From contig NZ_CP065546.1 of the NCBI RefSeq assembly GCF_015999545.1, positions 1,736,001-1,800,000 on the forward strand: DNA of 64,000 nucleotides, in the 5' to 3' direction. Below the pieces are notes generated by a model. The model saw nothing but the letters and a program-made list of their open reading frames with translations. It ran no database searches and was not told where the DNA came from. Origin of the DNA: Lysinibacillus sp. JNUCC-52 (GTDB taxonomy: Bacteria > Bacillota > Bacilli > Bacillales_A > Planococcaceae). This document shows positions 22,642-50,683 of the stretch, in pieces; the stretch's first letter is position 1, and each line of letters opens with the position of its first letter. A program made the translations under genes and the position numbers.

Positions 22642-23991
22642 TTACAGCTTCATTACAGCATCAATAAAAACATCGCCACGTATTTCAAAGCTGTCATATT
22701 GATCCCAACTTGCACAAGCTGGTGATAGTAGAATAATGTCTCCTTCTGCCGACATCGGCGCAGCATAATGAACAGCATCTTCTACATTTTGAGCAATGAC
22801 CGTTTGCGAAACCCCACAAGACTTAGCGAATTCCACAAAACGTAAGCCCGTTTCACCGAACGCCACAACGCCTTTTACATGCCCCATACAAGGTCGTAGT
22901 TCTTCAAAAGAATGTCCGCGGTCTAAACCACCCGCAAGTAAAATTACAGGCGCTTGGAATGCGTCTAAAGCACTTTTTGTTGCTAAGCAATTTGTTGCTT
23001 TAGAGTCATTGTATATTTTTCGACCATTCCACTCGCGGACAAATTGTGTACGGTGACGAACACCGCCAAACTTTGCTAAAACTTCTTCCATTTTTGCTTT
23101 GTCACAGCCAATTAATATACAAGCTGCTACAGCTGCAAGAATATTTTCTAGATTGTGTTTACCAGGCAGCGCAATATTCGCTCGATCCATAAATGGCTCA
23201 CCTTGCCAATAGATTGTCGTATCATCAGCGCTAATCCCTTGTTCAGTGCGTCCATTAGAAGAAAAAGGCACTTTTTTTGCATTGGATTTTGCAGCATAAC
23301 CTACAACAATTGGCTGATCCGCATTATAAATGAAATAATCATTTTCATCCTGATTTCGTGTTACACCAAACTTTGCTTCAGCATAGTTATCAAATGTCCC
23401 ATGATAATCAAGATGGGCATCATAAAGATTTGTTAAAATAGAAATTTTTGGTTTAAAAGTTTTTGTACCCATAAGCTGGAACGATGAAAGTTCCGTAACG
23501 ATAACGTTATCTTCTTGTGCCTCTCTTGCTACACCGCAGGCTACTGTGCCGATATTCCCTGCGATTAATGGTTTTTTCGCACCATTTTCTAACATCTCAA
23601 AAATTAATGTTGTGGTTGTCGTTTTACCATTAGATCCTGTAATACCTATAAATGGTGCTTCGCTAATTAAATAAGCAAGCTCTATTTCTGTCCAAACAGG
23701 TATTTCGCGACTAATTGCATCCGCTACAATTTTATTGCTATAAGGGATACCAGGGTTTTTAACAACTAGCTCAAATCCTTCATCAAGTAAATCCTCTGGA
23801 TGACGACCACAAATAACCGTAATGCCTTTTTGCAGTAGACCTTGCGCATCAGGGCTTTCATCAAATGGCTTTGAATCATTGACTGTTACAAAGGCGCCAA
23901 GCTCATGTAAAATCTCCGCTGCTGCCACACCACTTTTAGCTAGGCCTAAAACAAGGACTTTTTTATGTTGTAAATCTGTATATTCTCTCAT
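22642..23991 (-). CDS. murD: UDP-N-acetylmuramoylalanine-D-glutamate ligase
   Basis: 449 residues from the ATG at 23991, which follows TCGGAGGCGTTCTT and overlaps the mraY stop by 4 nt. The longer reading adds 28 residues without a ribosome site. The Mur ligase ATP loop is FIGITGSNGKTTTT, followed by NLYDAHLDYHG and YNDSKATN. It adds D-Glu to UDP-MurNAc-L-Ala in the cytoplasm. Confidence 0.97.
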   Translation of the reverse strand: MREYTDLQHKKVLVLGLAKSGVAAAEILHELGAFVTVNDSKPFDESPDAQGLLQKGITVICGRHPEDLLDEGFELVVKNPGIPYSNKIVADAISREIPVWTEIELAYLISEAPFIGITGSNGKTTTTTLIFEMLENGAKKPLIAGNIGTVACGVAREAQEDNVIVTELSSFQLMGTKTFKPKISILTNLYDAHLDYHGTFDNYAEAKFGVTRNQDENDYFIYNADQPIVVGYAAKSNAKKVPFSSNGRTEQGISADDTTIYWQGEPFMDRANIALPGKHNLENILAAVAACILIGCDKAKMEEVLAKFGGVRHRTQFVREWNGRKIYNDSKATNCLATKSALDAFQAPVILLAGGLDRGHSFEELRPCMGHVKGVVAFGETGLRFVEFAKSCGVSQTVIAQNVEDAVHYAAPMSAEGDIILLSPACASWDQYDSFEIRGDVFIDAVMKL

Positions 23992-24962
23992 AAGAACGCC
24001 TCCGATAAGACTGCAATCAATGCTACTGCTAAAGCAGTTGACCAAAATACAAGTACAACTTTCCATTCTGACCAACCTGATAATTCAAAATGATGGTGGA
24101 TAGGACTCATTTTAAATATCCGTTTTTTACGAATTTTAAAGCTACCCACCTGTAAAATAACAGAAAGTGTTTCGATGACAAACACTAAGCCAACTAATAG
24201 TAGTAAAAACTCTTCTTTAACTAATACCGATACCATGGCTAGCGCACCACCTAGTGCAAGTGAGCCAGTATCTCCCATAAATACTTTTGCAGGGTTTGCA
24301 TTGAAAAGTAAAAATCCTAATAATGCACCTGTTACTGCAAATGTAAATAACGCGATATCTGCTTGACTTTGGAATAGTGCAATAACACCAAATGCCGCAA
24401 AAGCAATCGATGCCGTCCCTGCCACAAGACCGTCCAAACCATCTGTTAGGTTGACAGCATTGGAAAACCCAACTAACCAGAAAATCAAAAAGGCTACATA
24501 AAATACACCTAGATCAATTGTAAAATCTGTAAAAGGAATGGCTAAAGTTGTATCAAAAGAACTGAAGTGCAATAGGAAGTATGCAAGTATCGCAATAACG
24601 ATTTGCCCTACTAACTTTTGAATCGATGTTAAACCTAAGTTACGTTTAAAAATGACCTTCAGGCCATCATCTAAAAAGCCAATTAATCCGAAACCTGCAA
24701 GTACAAGTAGAAGGACCACCGTTTGCGTTGTTAATAAATCTAAAAAGCTTCCAATCGCCACCGTTGTGAGAATGATGGCTATTAAAAAGATAATGCCGCC
24801 CATAGTCGGTGTGCCAGCTTTTTTCATGTGTGATTTTGGTCCTTCTTCACGAATACTTTGCCCAAACTTCAATCGACGAAGAAGCGGAATACTAATTGGT
24901 GCCAAGATAACTGTTACTATAAAAGCAATAGCTAAAATGGTAAGTGTTGTTGCGAGTTTCAT
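23988..24962 (-). CDS. mraY: Phospho-MurNAc-pentapeptide transferase (lipid I synthesis)
   Basis: 324 residues from the ATG at 24962, after AAAGGAGATTTTTCA. About ten membrane segments. Signatures are KKAGTPTMGGIIF, NAVNLTDGLDGL (catalytic Asp region), FMGDTGSLALGG and MSPIHHHFELSG. It moves phospho-MurNAc-pentapeptide to undecaprenyl phosphate. The 125-nt gap to spoVD is where murE sits in B. subtilis; no remnant is visible. Confidence 0.97.
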   Translation of the reverse strand: MKLATTLTILAIAFIVTVILAPISIPLLRRLKFGQSIREEGPKSHMKKAGTPTMGGIIFLIAIILTTVAIGSFLDLLTTQTVVLLLVLAGFGLIGFLDDGLKVIFKRNLGLTSIQKLVGQIVIAILAYFLLHFSSFDTTLAIPFTDFTIDLGVFYVAFLIFWLVGFSNAVNLTDGLDGLVAGTASIAFAAFGVIALFQSQADIALFTFAVTGALLGFLLFNANPAKVFMGDTGSLALGGALAMVSVLVKEEFLLLLVGLVFVIETLSVILQVGSFKIRKKRIFKMSPIHHHFELSGWSEWKVVLVFWSTALAVALIAVLSEAFL

Positions 24963-25087
24963 TGAAAAATCTCCTTTAAATCTTGTTTCACTTTCTTCTT
25001 CACGAAAAAAGTACAAACCCTCATATATTTATTACTACCCTTCATAATAATAGTGGTTCTTTCCCTTTTTTTAAAGGTAAAGTTACG

Positions 25088-27004
25088 TTAGTTCACTAAA
25101 TATAAATGAATGGTGCCATCTTGCTTGATAACACTATCCACTTCAGGTAATTGACTACCAATTTTAGTCCCTTCCCCATGCCATTCAATGCGGAATGGAT
25201 AATGTTGCTTGGCAATATCATCCTTCGTTTGTCCTATGAAACTCGGTACTTTCACAGTAAGTGGGTCACCCCAACGATAATCTTTTTCAAGCTGTTCCTT
25301 CGATTTTTCAATGCCAACAAATGGTGCTGCATCTTCAATAATTTGGCCGACGATTGGAGCTGCTACAACACCACCAAATTGTGTTGTCTTTTTCGGATTA
25401 TCCACTGCTACATACACGACAATTTGTGGATTGTCTGCAGGCGCAAATCCTATAAATGATACGATATATTCACCATCTTTATACCGCCCATTTTCAACTT
25501 TTTGAGCTGTACCTGTTTTGCCTCCAATACGCAGACCATCTCGATATGCTTGTCGACCTGACCCTTTCGCAACAACCGACTCTAATGCCTCACGTACTTT
25601 TGCAGATGTTTCCTCACGAATTACTTGCCTTTTAATAACTGGTTCTGTTTCATTAATCGTTTCCCCAGTATCTGGGTTAAAGATTTTTTTCACAACATAT
25701 GGCGTATAGAGCTTGCCCCCATTGACGGCTGCAGCTACTGCTTGCACTTGTTGGATTGGTGTAACTGCTACACCTTGACCGAATGAGGTTGTCGCTTGTT
25801 CCACAGGGCCAAATGCGTCTTTAGAAAACAATATCCCTGAAGCTTCACCAGCTATGTTGGAACCAGTTTTTTCTCCAAAACCAAAGTCTTTAATATACTG
25901 TAATAATTTTTCTCCGCCTAAGCGTTGACCTAATTCAATAAAGCCTGGGTTACAAGAATTTTGTACGACTTCTAAAAATGTTTCATGCCCATGACCTTCA
26001 CGCTTCCAGCAGCGCAATCTAGCACCTGCAACCATTGTATAACCTTGATCGTAAAATGTATCTTTTTCTAAATCTACCAAGTTCTCTTCTAGAGCGGCAC
26101 TGAGTGTAATAATTTTGAAAGTTGAACCTGGCTCATATGTCATCCAAACAGGTAAATTTCGGTTATAAATAACAGGCTCGACTAACTGATATTCTGCAGG
26201 ATGAAAAGTTGGATATGAGGCTAAAGCTAGTATTTCCCCAGTATTTGGATTCATAGCAATCGCCATTGCTTGGTCAGCTTCATAGCGTTCCATTGCTTGT
26301 GATAGCTCACGTTCAACAACTTGCTGAACATCTACATCAATTGTTAGCTCTATCGTTGCGCCATCTTCTCCAGCTTTCCATGCACTTGCGACATTTGGTA
26401 AGTTATTACCTTTCGCATCTGTGAAAAGCCGTATGGCAGAAGAATTTGCTTGTAACAGCTTGTCGTATTCATATTCTATCCCAGCTAGCCCTTGCGCATC
26501 ATAACCTGTAAAACCTAAAAAGCGAGATAGTAGCGTACCATACGGATATTCCCTTGAGTAATCTACACCACTATATAGTCCTTCAATTTGCATCCCTTGC
26601 AATTCAACAGCCTTCTCATAGGAAATATTTTTCCCTTCAGGCGCTAGCTTTACTAAGTACGCCTTTTTCTGCATCTTTTCCAACAGTTTTTGTTCATCTA
26701 CTTCAAGTACTTGTGCAATTTTCGCTGCCGCTCCTGCAATATCTTTGCTTTGTGACGGCATAAAATACAGTGTAGGAGCTAGCTTGTTCGTCACAATACT
26801 GTTACCATCTCGGTCCGTAATATGTCCGCGTTCATTTGCAAATGGAATTTCACGATCCCAGTTCTCTTCTGCTTTTTGCGTTAACTCTTTTTGGTCAAAC
26901 ACTTGCAAAACAAATAACCGAATGACAATTGCAACCGCTACACACATAAACAAAACATATAAAATACGTAAACGCTTTTTGGAATGGATAGAAATCCACT
27001 TCAT
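25088..27004 (-). CDS. spoVD: SpoVD, sporulation class B penicillin-binding protein
   Basis: 638 residues, similar in length to B. subtilis SpoVD. One N-terminal membrane anchor, a PBP dimerisation domain, then the transpeptidase domain with STFK, NSCN and KTGTAQK. A single PASTA domain lies at the C-terminus (about 580-638), the usual mark of SpoVD against PBP2B, which has two. It crosslinks cortex peptidoglycan with SpoVE. A SigE-like -10 (CATACGTT) lies just upstream. Confidence 0.93.
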   Translation of the reverse strand: MKWISIHSKKRLRILYVLFMCVAVAIVIRLFVLQVFDQKELTQKAEENWDREIPFANERGHITDRDGNSIVTNKLAPTLYFMPSQSKDIAGAAAKIAQVLEVDEQKLLEKMQKKAYLVKLAPEGKNISYEKAVELQGMQIEGLYSGVDYSREYPYGTLLSRFLGFTGYDAQGLAGIEYEYDKLLQANSSAIRLFTDAKGNNLPNVASAWKAGEDGATIELTIDVDVQQVVERELSQAMERYEADQAMAIAMNPNTGEILALASYPTFHPAEYQLVEPVIYNRNLPVWMTYEPGSTFKIITLSAALEENLVDLEKDTFYDQGYTMVAGARLRCWKREGHGHETFLEVVQNSCNPGFIELGQRLGGEKLLQYIKDFGFGEKTGSNIAGEASGILFSKDAFGPVEQATTSFGQGVAVTPIQQVQAVAAAVNGGKLYTPYVVKKIFNPDTGETINETEPVIKRQVIREETSAKVREALESVVAKGSGRQAYRDGLRIGGKTGTAQKVENGRYKDGEYIVSFIGFAPADNPQIVVYVAVDNPKKTTQFGGVVAAPIVGQIIEDAAPFVGIEKSKEQLEKDYRWGDPLTVKVPSFIGQTKDDIAKQHYPFRIEWHGEGTKIGSQLPEVDSVIKQDGTIHLYLVN

Positions 27005-46696: not shown

Positions 46697-47143
46697 TTAT
46701 GCAGAACAGGAGCATGAGCCACCTGACCCACAACCGCTTCCACATGAAGAATTGGATGCGAAAAACGGATTACTTACTGGTACTTTTACTGCTTCAGAAA
46801 CAGTTTTCCCAATAAGCAAGCTTATTTCATCTAGTAAATCTTGAAAATCATTTTCAGCTAACTTTAATGCTGAAATCTTTTCATTTAAATCGAGTGAGCG
46901 CTTTTGCTGACGAATCGATTTCATAATTGTATGATAATCCGGATGATATTTTCCGAAACGTTGTACATCTTCGTATTGCTCCTTCATGCGACCAAATGCA
47001 TAAATAGCTTCAACCAGCTCACTATCGCTATAAACGGCATTATACGCTAACCTAAGCGTATTCGCAGGTTCGGAGGAAAGAATCATTTCGCAAAGCGCAT
47101 CTGCCTCATCTAAAATGATTGCCCATTCAGAGGTTATCATCAT
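46697..47143 (-). CDS. ylbF: YlbF/RicF, RNA-maturation regulator with Cys-rich tail
   Basis: 148 residues. A helical YlbF/YmcA domain (about 1-115) is followed by a Gly/Ser/Cys tail, SCGSGCGSGGSCSCSA. In B. subtilis YlbF, YmcA and YaaT form the Ric complex, which binds iron-sulfur clusters and directs mRNA processing by RNase Y, affecting sporulation, competence and biofilm. The cysteines here are plausible cluster ligands. Confidence 0.92.
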   Translation of the reverse strand: MMITSEWAIILDEADALCEMILSSEPANTLRLAYNAVYSDSELVEAIYAFGRMKEQYEDVQRFGKYHPDYHTIMKSIRQQKRSLDLNEKISALKLAENDFQDLLDEISLLIGKTVSEAVKVPVSNPFFASNSSCGSGCGSGGSCSCSA

Positions 47144-47229
47144 TTTAATTCCCCCAATCTAATACCCATCATAACAGATTTTATGGTAATTTTACATTAT
47201 TGATATTTCTAAATGAAGGAGTTTTAAAA

Positions 47230-47733
47230 TTGGTAACATCATCTAAAGGACAAATTGAAGAATTACTCGCTACTATTTTACAAAATAGTACAGCGGAGGA
47301 TGAGGAAGTATTATTACACTTGCTAAATGGTATTCACGATAAACAACAAGGTATACATCGCCGTTATATCAATGCTGCTTTACATATGGTAGGCAACTTC
47401 GAGCCAGACAGTAGTGAAGTACGGATACCGATTACGCCCGTGATTCACAATACCATTAAAGTTCCGCATGGAGGGATTATTGCGACAATAGCTGATGCCG
47501 CAATGGGCGGACTCGCATCGCGTTCTGTTCCAGCAGGCTTTAATGTTGTGACAACAAATATTAACGTGTCCTATATCGCCACTACAACCAATAAAGAGTT
47601 AATTGCACGAGGTCGTTTTGTTCATAAAGGACGTCAAACACTTGTAATGGAATGTGACATTGAGGATGAAACTGGTCGTAAACTGGCAATTGCCACCGCT
47701 TCGTTCTTCGTTATTCAGCGCCGTCAGTCATAA
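47230..47733 (+). CDS. Hotdog-fold (PaaI-type) acyl-CoA thioesterase
   Basis: 167 residues from TTG at 47230, which follows GAAGGAGTTTTAAAA. The hotdog helix with VPHGGIIATIADAAMGG (HGG motif and catalytic acid) and TNINVSYIATTTNKELIARG are typical of PaaI thioesterases. Substrate unknown. Its last 23 nt overlap the end of murE on the other strand, an unusually tight convergent arrangement with no terminator between. Confidence 0.87.
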   Translation: MVTSSKGQIEELLATILQNSTAEDEEVLLHLLNGIHDKQQGIHRRYINAALHMVGNFEPDSSEVRIPITPVIHNTIKVPHGGIIATIADAAMGGLASRSVPAGFNVVTTNINVSYIATTTNKELIARGRFVHKGRQTLVMECDIEDETGRKLAIATASFFVIQRRQS

Positions 47734-49180
47734 CAGAGAAATAATCTTTAATACATTGTTGATCGGAAAAAGGGAATTTTTGATTTTTTATTTGCTGTGT
47801 TTGTTCATGCCCTTTTCCGGCAACAAGCACAATATCTCCTTTTTGCGCTTTAGCCAATGCTTGATGGATCGCAACTTTACGGTCTAAAAAAATTTCATAA
47901 TATTGCTGTTCTGAAAAACCAGCAATAATACTTTCATTAATTACTATAGGGTCCTCATCTCTTGGATTATCAGTTGTTAAAAAAATAACATCTGCATACT
48001 TGCTTGCTACAGCACCCATTGCAAAACGTTTTGCCTTATCTCTATTGCCACCACAACTAAACACAAGGTAGATGGTCTTCTTACTATCAAAGGTTTGTAA
48101 TACTGCCTGCAATGCCTCTGCCGTATGTGCGTAATCTACATACACTTCAATCCCTAGTGGGTTATCTATGCGCTCTAGTCTACCTTCTGGTAATCTTAGT
48201 TCCCACATATGTTCAGCTACTTCATCCATCGAGAAGCCTAAACGCCACACCGCCATGAATGCAGCTACTGCATTTTGCACATGATACTTACCAACAAAAG
48301 GTATGGCAATGATGTGCTCAGTCGTTGACGTTTGCAAACATAGTACAGTTTTTCCAATGGTTTCACTCACAATTTGGATATGTAAATCATTGTGATTGTC
48401 AAAGCCAAATGAGCAAGATTTTTTCTTGTCGTAAATACCAACGGATCGGCAAAAATTATCGTCTCCGTTTAACACAATTTTTTTAGATAAATCGGCTAAC
48501 CTTTTTTTAGCACGTTTGTACGCTTCTAGCCCTCCATGGTCTTCTATATGATCCTCTGATAAATTTAGAAATACTCCACAATCAATGTCGCAATGATCAA
48601 GTCTATGTTGTTGCAATCCCATTGAGGAAGCTTCTAAAACAACATGTGTAACACCTTGACGAACACATTGTTTTAAAATAGGATGGAGCTCTTTTGCTTG
48701 TAATGTTGTTAATTGCTCATATTCTGTTTGTTGTTTTTGCCCATTAACAAAGAAGCCTACTGTTCCAATAACTGCTACATTTTTATGTAAAGCCTTTAGT
48801 AATTGGCTTACAAAATGACTTACTGTTGTTTTTCCATTCGTTCCTGTTATGGCAATTACCGACAAAGCTTCAGCTGGAAAAGCAGCTAGCTTTGCGCTTG
48901 CATATGATAAAAACAAAGCGGTATTCGGTACCCAAACGAAAGGAATGTTTTGATCGCTGAATGGTATTGCAATACTTTCCTCGGATACGACGGCCGCAGC
49001 TCCTCTTGCCAGTGCTTCTTTTACAAAACGACTGCCCGATGTTTTTTTTCCTTTTCGCACAATAAAAATATCTCCAGGTTTCACCGCTTGTGCATAATCC
49101 TCTACACCAGTAATGATTGTGCGAATGGATCCACCAGTTACACTACATGGCCAATCTTTCAATAGCTCAGCTAATTGCAA
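47711..49180 (-). CDS. murE: MurE-type UDP-MurNAc-tripeptide synthetase, meso-diaminopimelate-adding signature
   Basis: 489 residues. N-terminal UDP-binding domain (residues 1-100), central ATPase with P-loop GTNGKTT (113-119), and C-terminal substrate domain. Residues that contact meso-DAP in known enzymes are present: GGNRDKAKR, DNPR (404-407) and GKGHE (455-459). Lysine-adding enzymes of the S. aureus type have DNPA and SKGRE instead. The start is TTG at 49180 after AAAGGAGGATGAGACA. It is a single-gene unit far from the dcw cluster, which lacks murE. A terminator closes ylbC upstream, and a CATATGATA -10 element suggests mother-cell transcription. A role in making DAP-containing spore peptidoglycan is inferred. 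Confidence 0.93.
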   Translation of the reverse strand: MQLAELLKDWPCSVTGGSIRTIITGVEDYAQAVKPGDIFIVRKGKKTSGSRFVKEALARGAAAVVSEESIAIPFSDQNIPFVWVPNTALFLSYASAKLAAFPAEALSVIAITGTNGKTTVSHFVSQLLKALHKNVAVIGTVGFFVNGQKQQTEYEQLTTLQAKELHPILKQCVRQGVTHVVLEASSMGLQQHRLDHCDIDCGVFLNLSEDHIEDHGGLEAYKRAKKRLADLSKKIVLNGDDNFCRSVGIYDKKKSCSFGFDNHNDLHIQIVSETIGKTVLCLQTSTTEHIIAIPFVGKYHVQNAVAAFMAVWRLGFSMDEVAEHMWELRLPEGRLERIDNPLGIEVYVDYAHTAEALQAVLQTFDSKKTIYLVFSCGGNRDKAKRFAMGAVASKYADVIFLTTDNPRDEDPIVINESIIAGFSEQQYYEIFLDRKVAIHQALAKAQKGDIVLVAGKGHEQTQQIKNQKFPFSDQQCIKDYFSVMTDGAE

Positions 49181-49204
49181 TGTCTCATCCTCCTTTCAGT
49201 TCTC

Positions 49205-49230
49205 TATCATATGACGGCTTTTGTAACGGT
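49205..49230 (-). promoter_or_regulatory. Candidate mother-cell (SigK/SigE) promoter of murE
   Basis: On the minus strand CATATGATA (49205-49213) fits the sigma-K -10, CATAnnnTA. It also matches the sigma-E -10 at 6 of 8 positions. CACC with the AC pair at 49229-49230 lies 15 nt upstream, near the expected sigma-K -35 (mACm). The element is 25 nt before the TTG start. The -35 is a weak signal by nature. Confidence 0.4.
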
Positions 49231-49351
49231 GTGACGAAAAATGTAGATGCCTCCTCATACCAGTTAAACGGGCTATTTTAAAGGTGGAATCTTGCAATCC
49301 ATTAACCAGTACAAAAAATATTAGTCGTTCGATTTTGCCGATTTTAAGCAC

Positions 49352-49387
49352 AAAAAAAGATTGTCTTGAATTAATCAAGACAATCTT
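49352..49387 (-). terminator. Terminator downstream of ylbC
   Basis: AAGATTGTCTTGA and its complement (13 bp) around ATTAA, followed by TTTTTTT on the minus strand. It separates ylbC from murE. The 49231-49558 gap otherwise holds the repeat element at 49398-49590 and nothing else recognised. Confidence 0.9.
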
Positions 49388-49397
49388 CTATAAATAA

Positions 49398-49590
49398 AAT
49401 TGTTTGAGTGCCTGTCACTTAACATGGGCACTATATCGAAAAAATCCAATTCGCTTTTCAGTAAGCGGCTAACCTCGCTGTCGTACAGTTTGTTGCCTCT
49501 TACGTTTTGAGCTGTTCCCGCATAAATTTTTACTTAGTTAACCCTACTGGTAGCGCCGTTAAAATTCAGAATTGTTTGAGTGACTGTCAC
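49398..49590. repeat. Repeat element with direct GTGCC-type ends, running into ylbC
   Basis: AATTGTTTGAGTGCCTGTCA (49398) and AATTGTTTGAGTGACTGTCA (49570) are direct repeats about 172 bp apart. The layout matches the element at 40630-40764 in inverted orientation. The right-hand repeat lies inside the 3' end of ylbC and encodes its last residues. CAAACAATTCTGAAT next to it is identical to the arm of the palindrome at 16003-16051. Confidence 0.75.
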
Positions 49591-50683
49591 TCTCAGTTTC
49601 TTCTACGGATTCTTCACTATCATCTTTTTCCTTCGATGGCTCCATAAAAATTTGTGTATAGTAATTTAAAAAGACACCTGATCCTACAGCAGTATATTTA
49701 TCGTTTAAAATCACTTTGCGATGTTCAGGTGAATTTAGCCAGCCATGCATTGCTTCAATCGCATCAAAGTATGCTGTGGCAAGGTTTTCATTCGCATTAC
49801 TATAAGCAATTTCTTGTGAGTCTAAACGTTTCTTTAAATCTCCATTTGTTGGAGACTCATGACCAGAAAAATTTTGCACCTTCATATCTTCACTGTGCAA
49901 TTTAGCTACTTCCTCTAATTTTTCATCAAATGCCAACGGCGCTAAATCATGATGAACACGCGTGACATTAATTAAATCATCAAGCTGTGCCGTACTAGCT
50001 TCATTGATGTCCTGCTGTAAAAATGAGGAAGGCGGTGTAGGACTAACAAGCTCCCCTTGATAAATCATTTCGTAAGGTTGATGAAGTACGAGCGTCTCGC
50101 TATCAGTGAAGCGAACACCTTGTAGTGCACTCGTTTCGCTATCAATATAAAGCTGTGCAAACAGCCCATCAAATTTTATAAGTAGTCTAGTCTGCATATC
50201 TTCCTCACTCATAGAGAAAATGAAAATATTCTCCCCGACATTGGCAGCTACTTCATAATCAATAATGGTCATTCGGTAAATATCGTCCCGCTTCTGACCT
50301 ATTTTAAAAGGTGTAGCATCTAGCTTATCACCCGCTATGTATACTTGTGTCACAACATCATTTTGCACACCTAACATAAAAAATGTTGATACACTTGTTT
50401 TATAAACCCACCATTCGTAACCAAACGATGAAGGCTCTTTCCTTGCTGGTTCACCATATTGTTCTAAGACAACTTGTATTCCTTGGCCAATTAATGTCGA
50501 CATACCACTTTGCGGACGTGTCATCGCTCCAACTTCTGGCTGCTCCAGTTCTGTTTTCGGAATAATATTTGAACTGGCATTTGGCCCTTCTAGCGGCTCA
50601 TTTTCCTTGGGCGTACTAAAGAACATAAAGCCGATAAACGCAATCGTTGCACAGGCAATTAAAATGCGAAATAAAGCTTTCAT
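49559..50683 (-). CDS. ylbC: YlbC, CAP-domain (SCP-like) exported protein
   Basis: 374 residues. One N-terminal membrane segment (about 5-23), a CAP-associated domain (about 65-205, IGQGIQVVLEQYGEPARKEP) and a C-terminal CAP/SCP domain (about 230-350) with HSEDMKVQNFSGHESP and ENLATAYFDAIEAMHGWLNS. CAP proteins of Bacilli are extracellular with unknown activity. The acidic tail ending DSHSNNSEF is partly encoded by a dispersed repeat. The ATG follows AAAGGGGTCGAGT. Confidence 0.9.
   Translation of the reverse strand: MKALFRILIACATIAFIGFMFFSTPKENEPLEGPNASSNIIPKTELEQPEVGAMTRPQSGMSTLIGQGIQVVLEQYGEPARKEPSSFGYEWWVYKTSVSTFFMLGVQNDVVTQVYIAGDKLDATPFKIGQKRDDIYRMTIIDYEVAANVGENIFIFSMSEEDMQTRLLIKFDGLFAQLYIDSETSALQGVRFTDSETLVLHQPYEMIYQGELVSPTPPSSFLQQDINEASTAQLDDLINVTRVHHDLAPLAFDEKLEEVAKLHSEDMKVQNFSGHESPTNGDLKKRLDSQEIAYSNANENLATAYFDAIEAMHGWLNSPEHRKVILNDKYTAVGSGVFLNYYTQIFMEPSKEKDDSEESVEETESDSHSNNSEF

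Follow-up and report, generated by a model that had tools for sequence, protein, structure and literature searches.

A predicted sporulation-specific, DAP-type MurE ligase in Lysinibacillus and its relatives

Introduction

Bacillus (Lysinibacillus) sphaericus reportedly contains two UDP-N-acetylmuramic acid (UDP-MurNAc)-tripeptide synthetase activities, said to have been described by Linnett and Tipper in 1974 and by Tipper and Linnett in 1976: a lysine-adding enzyme is said to act in growth and a meso-diaminopimelic acid (DAP)-adding enzyme in sporulation, with the DAP activity reportedly fractionating to the mother cell. That system is known as activities in extracts; here we propose a gene, a promoter, and a distribution across genomes for the DAP activity. 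The gene, murE1, lies at positions 47711..49180 on the minus strand of a 64-kb stretch of DNA (bases 1736001-1800000, the window below) of the single-contig genome of Lysinibacillus sp. JNUCC-52 (4,681,075 bases), a member of the same genus. Its predicted product, MurE1, and a second ligase encoded outside the window, MurE2, resemble the reported pair of activities. We found no publication assigning the murE1 gene, in a literature search with limited reach into subscription journals.

Other described systems offer further points of comparison. The ordinary DNPR-type MurE of other Bacilli belongs to the same family as MurE1 and likewise carries the DNPR and GKGHE motifs, but MurE1 is encoded outside the division and cell wall (dcw) cluster, has its own sigma-K-type promoter, shares ~30-35% identity with these enzymes, and forms a separate clade (the dcw position of murE in other Bacilli was checked in one genome, G356). 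The Staphylococcus aureus L-lysine ligase (PDB 4c12) is a relative of MurE2, the vegetative partner; it has DNPA where MurE1 has DNPR, and its resemblance to MurE1 is much weaker (220.8 bits). In Bacillus subtilis, the DapG aspartokinase and the spoVF operon supply the DAP and dipicolinate pathway during sporulation. The likeness here is that a gene next to murE1 in several related genera has aspartate kinase as its best model match (one copy scanned), whereas the neighbor is only ~245 aa long, with the C-terminal part missing, and no such gene is present at the window's own locus.

Results

The murE1 open reading frame is intact and encodes 489 aa from a TTG start codon preceded by a GGAGG ribosome site; direct reading of the sequence places the ribosome-binding region, AAAGGAGGATGAG, at 49184..49196 (minus strand) within a short leader. 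The product matches the MurE model TIGR01085 over residues 22-480 with 433.5 bits (cut-off 257.3) and contains the Pfam domains Mur_ligase, Mur_ligase_M, and Mur_ligase_C as well as the ATP-binding motif GTNGKTT; this full-length match above a curated cut-off, together with the three Mur ligase domains, places it in the MurE family. It also exceeds the cut-off of the NCBIfam DAP-ligase model NF001126 (438.3 versus 373 bits). A preliminary description of this stretch, which gave no strand, had reported DNPR at residues 404-407 and GKGHE at residues 455-459, and both are found there in the translation. DNPR marks DAP-adding MurE enzymes, and in our alignments the DNPR of MurE1 aligns with the DNPR of the Mycobacterium tuberculosis DAP enzyme, whereas the lysine enzymes of Thermotoga maritima and S. 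aureus have DDPR and DNPA, respectively. On the other hand, GKGHE, which had also been taken as a mark of DAP specificity, does not discriminate, because lysine-type MurE2 carries it too. The protein alignment kept 102 of 137 proteins, leaving out near-identical Lysinibacillus sequences and duplicate loci; D-N-x-R is kept in all MurE1 rows printed, and GKGHE in all but one copy (from genome G020). No DNPR was seen among the MurE proteins read from non-sporulating genera, whose motifs are of the DDPR, DDLN, or DHPG type. The closest named MurE1 is that of Lysinibacillus mangiferihumi (96% identity), and 19 of 20 named loci are from Lysinibacillus.

Searching the whole genome with MurE1 returned two MurE-level matches, MurE1 itself and one outside the window, in line with the earlier statement that the window holds a single MurE; a further match in the window is murD and is much weaker. 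The second MurE, MurE2 (match at genome positions 1917909-1919333), is encoded 133 kb from MurE1 and is 32% identical to it. The preliminary description had proposed looking for a second, lysine-type MurE with DNPA or a similar motif; MurE2 has DDPR at this position. Its best solved relative is the S. aureus L-lysine ligase, at 484 bits (next best 301.5), and it is by this closeness to a characterized enzyme that we class it as lysine-type. The NCBIfam L-lysine ligase model NF010628 (cut-off 536 bits) is passed by neither protein (MurE2, 427.3; MurE1, 299.9 bits). Vegetative walls of Lysinibacillus contain lysine and aspartate in place of DAP (PMC5011910, PMC10434897). The kinship with L. sphaericus on which the earlier argument depended holds at the level of the genus, and because growth has a lysine enzyme of its own in MurE2, MurE1 must have another job. 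NF001126 accepts both MurE1 and MurE2 (window positions 47711-49180 and L002:1468-2949, respectively), so automated annotation is likely to mislabel the vegetative enzyme. In the host genome, murE2 adjoins prfC. Of the 24 MurE2 loci displayed, 17 have a visible prfC; the other seven include three from another family and three with 1-kb flanks only.

The presence of murE1 follows that of sporulation genes across the family. We surveyed 250 family genomes of at least 90% completeness from 19 genera, drawn evenly from a larger group, with MurE1 (match threshold E<=1e-85), SpoIVA, MurE2, and a spore sigma-K model (E<=1e-60) as queries. A MurE of some kind is present in all 250. MurE1 was called intact in 183, of which 174 were called by score alone without individual reading of the motif, eight from split matches read as DNPR, and one (G020) by synteny and DNPR. 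SpoIVA was found in 186 genomes and not found in 64, which make up six entire genera (g7, 3 genomes; g8, 46; g9, 2; g10, 8; g13, 2; g16, 3), and in these 64 no MurE1 match surpasses 2.3e-71, which is where cross-matching by MurE2 falls. The sigma-K model recognizes sigma-E as well; it finds 183 genomes and misses exactly the 64 SpoIVA-negative ones and three more, G001, G038, and G053. Because none of its matches reaches the curated cut-off, the B. subtilis control included, we read a match as spore sigma-K/E and not as a strict sigK call. Intact MurE1 and the spore sigma match agree in 250 of 250 genomes, MurE1 being called intact in all 183 with the match and in none of the 67 without it, one of which is as large as 4.1 Mb; the Fisher p value (~1e-62) overstates independence because the genomes are related.

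Twelve SpoIVA-positive genomes without a strong single MurE1 match (eight of genus g3, four of g2) were considered as possible spore formers lacking MurE1, and this was rejected. The eight g3 genomes do encode a DNPR MurE1, whose match is split in two, and G020 of g2 has a strongly diverged DNPR copy at the syntenic locus, adjoined by a relative of aspartokinase (tblastn, 122 bits). The remaining three, G001, G038, and G053 (g2), have weak SpoIVA matches (1.9e-12, 2.0e-56, and 1.1e-40, respectively) and no spore sigma match, and no DNPR MurE was found among the MurE proteins read from them. In G001 and G038, the two of these three inspected there, MurE1 fragments persist at the locus between ylbC and ylbF that houses the gene elsewhere, together with aspartokinase fragments in G038. 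G031 carries a MurE-like fragment with an inner stop (L226). In the 12 non-sporulator loci examined, which cover all six genera, the place of MurE1 is empty, with ylbC followed by the thioesterase gene and/or ylbF. In a MurE2 tree with 33 rows, of which 31 were labeled, the non-sporulating state needs five changes (bootstrap range 4-6), so that several losses are likely, although the starred branches force only two. Relatives that abandoned sporulation have lost the murE1 gene.

The region upstream of murE1 points in the same direction. The sigma-K consensus is given as KCACM and KCATANNNTA (PMC3416734) with a spacing of 14-16 nt (PMC517825), and sigma-K is described as a mother-cell factor (PMC517825). 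A predicted promoter at 49205..49234 (minus strand) consists of TCACA, 15 nt, and TCATATGATA, agrees with this consensus at 12 of 12 positions, and stops 24 nt before the start codon; it is the sole 12/12 match in the window on either strand. The stricter pattern GTCACA-N15..17-CATANNNTA has the murE1 site as its only match in the genome and is too strict to list a regulon. For comparison across genomes, we used 74 distinct MurE1 upstream regions with duplicates collapsed and 40 MurE2 upstream regions as controls; L160, L129, and L063 (all G004), for which no start was found, were left out, and L074, L132, and L133 (g3) were kept despite an apparently misplaced start. A 12/12 match occurs in 30 of the 74 MurE1 regions, compared with 0 of 1480 and 0 of 2220 shuffled sequences in two runs, and the best sigma-K score upstream of MurE2 is 10. 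Among the 32 distinct Lysinibacillus regions, 30 score 12/12 and two 11/12, and the promoter block is kept while its flanks drift. The exact -10 box CATANNNTA lies within 120 nt in 68 of 74 MurE1 regions but in 0 of 40 MurE2 regions and 75 of 2220 shuffles.

The locus is conserved in its surroundings. Upstream of murE1 lies a gene for a protein with Pfam CAP_assoc_N and CAP domains (49559..50683, minus strand), which is ylbC-like, and a terminator-like hairpin of 15 pairs followed by a T-rich run (49355..49389, minus strand) stands between the two; this hairpin is a consensus match only, the stretch scanned containing two terminator-like sites compared with a mean of 2.0 in shuffles. Downstream, a 4HBT thioesterase gene (47200..47733, plus strand) converges on murE1 and overlaps it by 23 bp, and a ylbF-like gene (Pfam Com_YlbF; 46697..47143, minus strand) marks the other side. 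With a hairpin upstream and a convergent gene downstream, murE1 does look like the single-gene unit that it had been said to be. We compared 38 MurE1 loci, each from a different genome and together representing 11 genera other than Lysinibacillus: 37 have a ylbC-like gene upstream and 37 a ylbF-like gene within 4 kb on the other side, the exceptions being L100, without a ylbC match, and L112, which stops at a contig end. The dcw cluster of the window, at 21.5-31.1 kb, comprises mraZ, rsmH, an ftsL-sized open reading frame, pbpB, spoVD, mraY, murD, and a spoVE/ftsW-like gene. Here spoVD (25088..27004, minus strand) is directly followed by mraY (23988..25016, minus strand), and no murE was found between them, as the preliminary description had noted. 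Its further remark that murE1 is far from this cluster holds in that the gene is outside it and not between spoVD and mraY; the distance is relative, at ~17 kb upstream of mraZ.

A divergent gene of ~245 codons stands between ylbC and murE1 in g3, g4, g5, g6, g12, and g17. A motif search recognized it as an aspartokinase gene in 23 of the 38 loci, with L131 of g12 unmatched. The one copy scanned matches Pfam AA_kinase with 114.6 bits (cut-off 24.9), and its best NCBIfam match is aspartate kinase NF006068, at 264.9 bits against a cut-off of 474, a shortfall explained by its covering only positions 2-245 of the 405 in the model. The C-terminal part of aspartokinases is regulatory, and the product of the murE1-linked gene is a catalytic domain without it. 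Aspartate kinase opens the pathway to DAP, lysine, and dipicolinate; since the window's own locus has no aspartokinase gene, this neighbor supports a DAP-adding role of MurE1 by association only. A conserved stretch between the aspartokinase gene and murE1 in L111-L129 and L132-L135 may hold a two-way promoter.

In a tree of 51 chosen rows, MurE1 forms a single clade with 100/100 support on a long branch and groups with neither MurE2 nor the DNPR enzymes of other Bacilli; support for its nearest neighbors is weaker (81/85 and 89/67). A quick tree including very divergent rows (2 non-MurE and 15 redundant rows left out) was dominated by long branches. Between Lysinibacillus and g11, g14, g15, g18, and g19, identity in the rows read is 46-57% for MurE1 and 74-81% for MurE2, so MurE1 has diverged faster than MurE2. 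Outside the family, the SpoIVA-bearing genome G356 encodes a DNPR murE between spoVD and mraY and, 3.4 kb from prfC, a lysine-type, MurE2-like gene (L246, L247), and may show an earlier or intermediate state before murE left the dcw cluster. At slightly less than even odds, MurE1 would be the ancestral dcw murE, moved out when the lysine enzyme took over growth, and not a separately acquired gene. The gene arrangement of G356, which looks like the state before such a move, speaks for this origin; the separation of the MurE1 clade from the DNPR MurE of Bacilli, that of G356 included, its long branch, and the weaker support of its neighbors speak against it.

Discussion

Together, these data make it very probable that MurE1 is a mother-cell meso-DAP ligase for the spore cortex, used only in sporulation. 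Its tie to sporulation follows from its co-occurrence and co-loss with the spore sigma match, its sigma-K-type promoter, and the divergent aspartokinase gene beside it in related genera, whereas substrate specificity, transcription by sigma-K, location in the mother cell, and destination in the cortex are what we infer. During growth, MurE2 would make the lysine precursors of the Lys-Asp wall; once sporulation is well advanced, mother-cell sigma-K would turn on murE1 from its own promoter, and MurE1 would charge UDP-MurNAc-L-Ala-D-Glu with meso-DAP. The shared later enzymes MurF, MraY, and MurG and the spore proteins SpoVD and SpoVE would then convert this precursor into DAP-containing cortex. 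A predicted promoter for a mother-cell sigma factor fits the DAP activity that reportedly fractionated to the mother cell in B. sphaericus. The preliminary description had already proposed a sporulation DAP ligase set apart from the vegetative pathway; the lysine-type MurE2 supports this proposal without proving it, and co-loss with sporulation and the conserved sigma-K-type promoter carry it beyond the original argument.

Several observations weigh against this interpretation. As regards the promoter, six of the 74 MurE1 upstream regions are without the exact -10 box (three of the 16 g3 regions and each of the three from g12), genera other than Lysinibacillus have a weaker -35 box, and a sigma-A-like 9/12 match overlaps the sigma-K site; matches of this kind occur in 51 of 74 MurE1 regions and are thus more frequent than in shuffles (272 of 740). 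As regards the enzyme, the proline of the DNPR motif is replaced by Ala, Ser, or Cys in g14, g18, and g19, NF001126 fits MurE2 (523.1 bits) better than MurE1, and MurE1 scores 244.7 bits with the M. tuberculosis DAP ligase and 237.2 bits with the T. maritima lysine ligase, compared with the value given above for the S. aureus lysine ligase. Because the overall score is similar to DAP and lysine enzymes, the DAP assignment draws on the motif, the separate lysine enzyme, and the context. As regards distribution, G098 combines strong MurE1 and sigma matches with a weak SpoIVA match (9.7e-36), in a draft genome of ~160 contigs, and the G020 copy, with GKGNE, falls outside the MurE1 clade on a very long branch.

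The promoter observations bear on a variant of this interpretation, in which MurE1 is linked to sporulation but transcribed by sigma-E in the early mother cell, or also by sigma-A. Sigma-E and sigma-K share the CATA core of the -10 box (PMC3416734), and the B. subtilis cortex genes listed are sigma-E genes (PMC3533761). The surplus of sigma-A-like matches would also suit it, but this probably arises because TATGAT sits inside the sigma-K -10 box, and sigma-A scores of at least 10 are found in seven of 74 MurE1 regions compared with 37 of 740 shuffles. Sigma-E was rejected as the reader of the murE1 promoter, since its scores stay in the range of shuffles (12 of 15 in 11 of 74 MurE1 regions; at least 12 in 78 of 740 shuffles). 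With a perfect sigma-K match in nearly all Lysinibacillus upstream regions as well, we regard this variant as rather unlikely. A sporulation role in which MurE1 adds a different amino acid, such as lysine or ornithine in place of meso-DAP, is suggested by the failure of full-length similarity to separate DAP from lysine enzymes and by the replaced proline in three genera; we consider it very improbable, because every MurE1 row printed retains Asp, Asn, and Arg of the motif, the same cell already has a lysine enzyme, and the neighboring aspartokinase catalyzes the entry step to DAP, albeit one shared with the routes to lysine and dipicolinate. Finally, MurE1 might be a general vegetative or salvage enzyme, for minor wall DAP or peptide recycling, whose link with sporulation reflects ancestry or genome size. 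The relatedness of the genomes, which makes the counts non-independent, leaves room for such an explanation, but the lack of intact MurE1 in every genome without a spore sigma match, the 4.1-Mb one included, the approximately five changes on the MurE2 tree, the MurE1 fragments where spore genes are weak, and the conserved sigma-K-type promoter make it extremely improbable.

If MurE1 is indeed the cortex DAP ligase, a change in wall chemistry during development, known as an enzyme activity, acquires a gene and a switch. It is then possible, although we hold this only tentatively, that the cortex itself demands DAP: a family with another diamino acid in its growing wall keeps a sigma-K-switched DAP ligase for as long as it sporulates, in several genera with a stripped-down aspartokinase, and maintains two precursor pools, lysine for a germ-cell wall made with MurE2 in the forespore and DAP for a cortex made with MurE1 in the mother cell. 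Wall chemistry would then mark the layer to be broken down at germination. Why the cortex must contain DAP becomes testable through one gene that is dispensable in non-sporulating relatives, and the natural experiment is a strong one, with MurE1 tracking the spore sigma match in 250 genomes and fragments caught at the locus. DAP peptidoglycan can also come from a "lysine-type" bacterium, and this, speculatively, could matter for immune sensing.

Other Mur ligase-like genes

Further MurE-like and Mur-ligase-like proteins were seen alongside MurE1 and MurE2. A divergent MurE clade in g2 and g5 (L139, L141, L144, L145, L146, L060, L220) scores ~279-296 bits with TIGR01085 and reads KDVV and GCQGMD at the usual motifs, and no close MurE2 match was seen in these two genera; at a guess, it is their vegetative enzyme, perhaps for ornithine. 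The non-sporulating genera g8 and g13 (L196-L199, L217, L218, L221-L225) carry as many as five additional MurE-like ligases, with DDLN or DHPG motifs and in some cases no GKGHE, which are possible poly-amino-acid or secondary-metabolite ligases. In the host genome itself, a Mur-ligase-like cluster at ~750-758 kb (G000:C1; L004, L005, L007) encodes, as named by eye, proteins of 461 and 466 aa together with a 750-aa protein resembling an ATP-grasp/Mur ligase fusion, a 409-aa ATP-grasp-like protein, and an NlpC/P60-like protein, and may make a peptide or a wall-related polymer.

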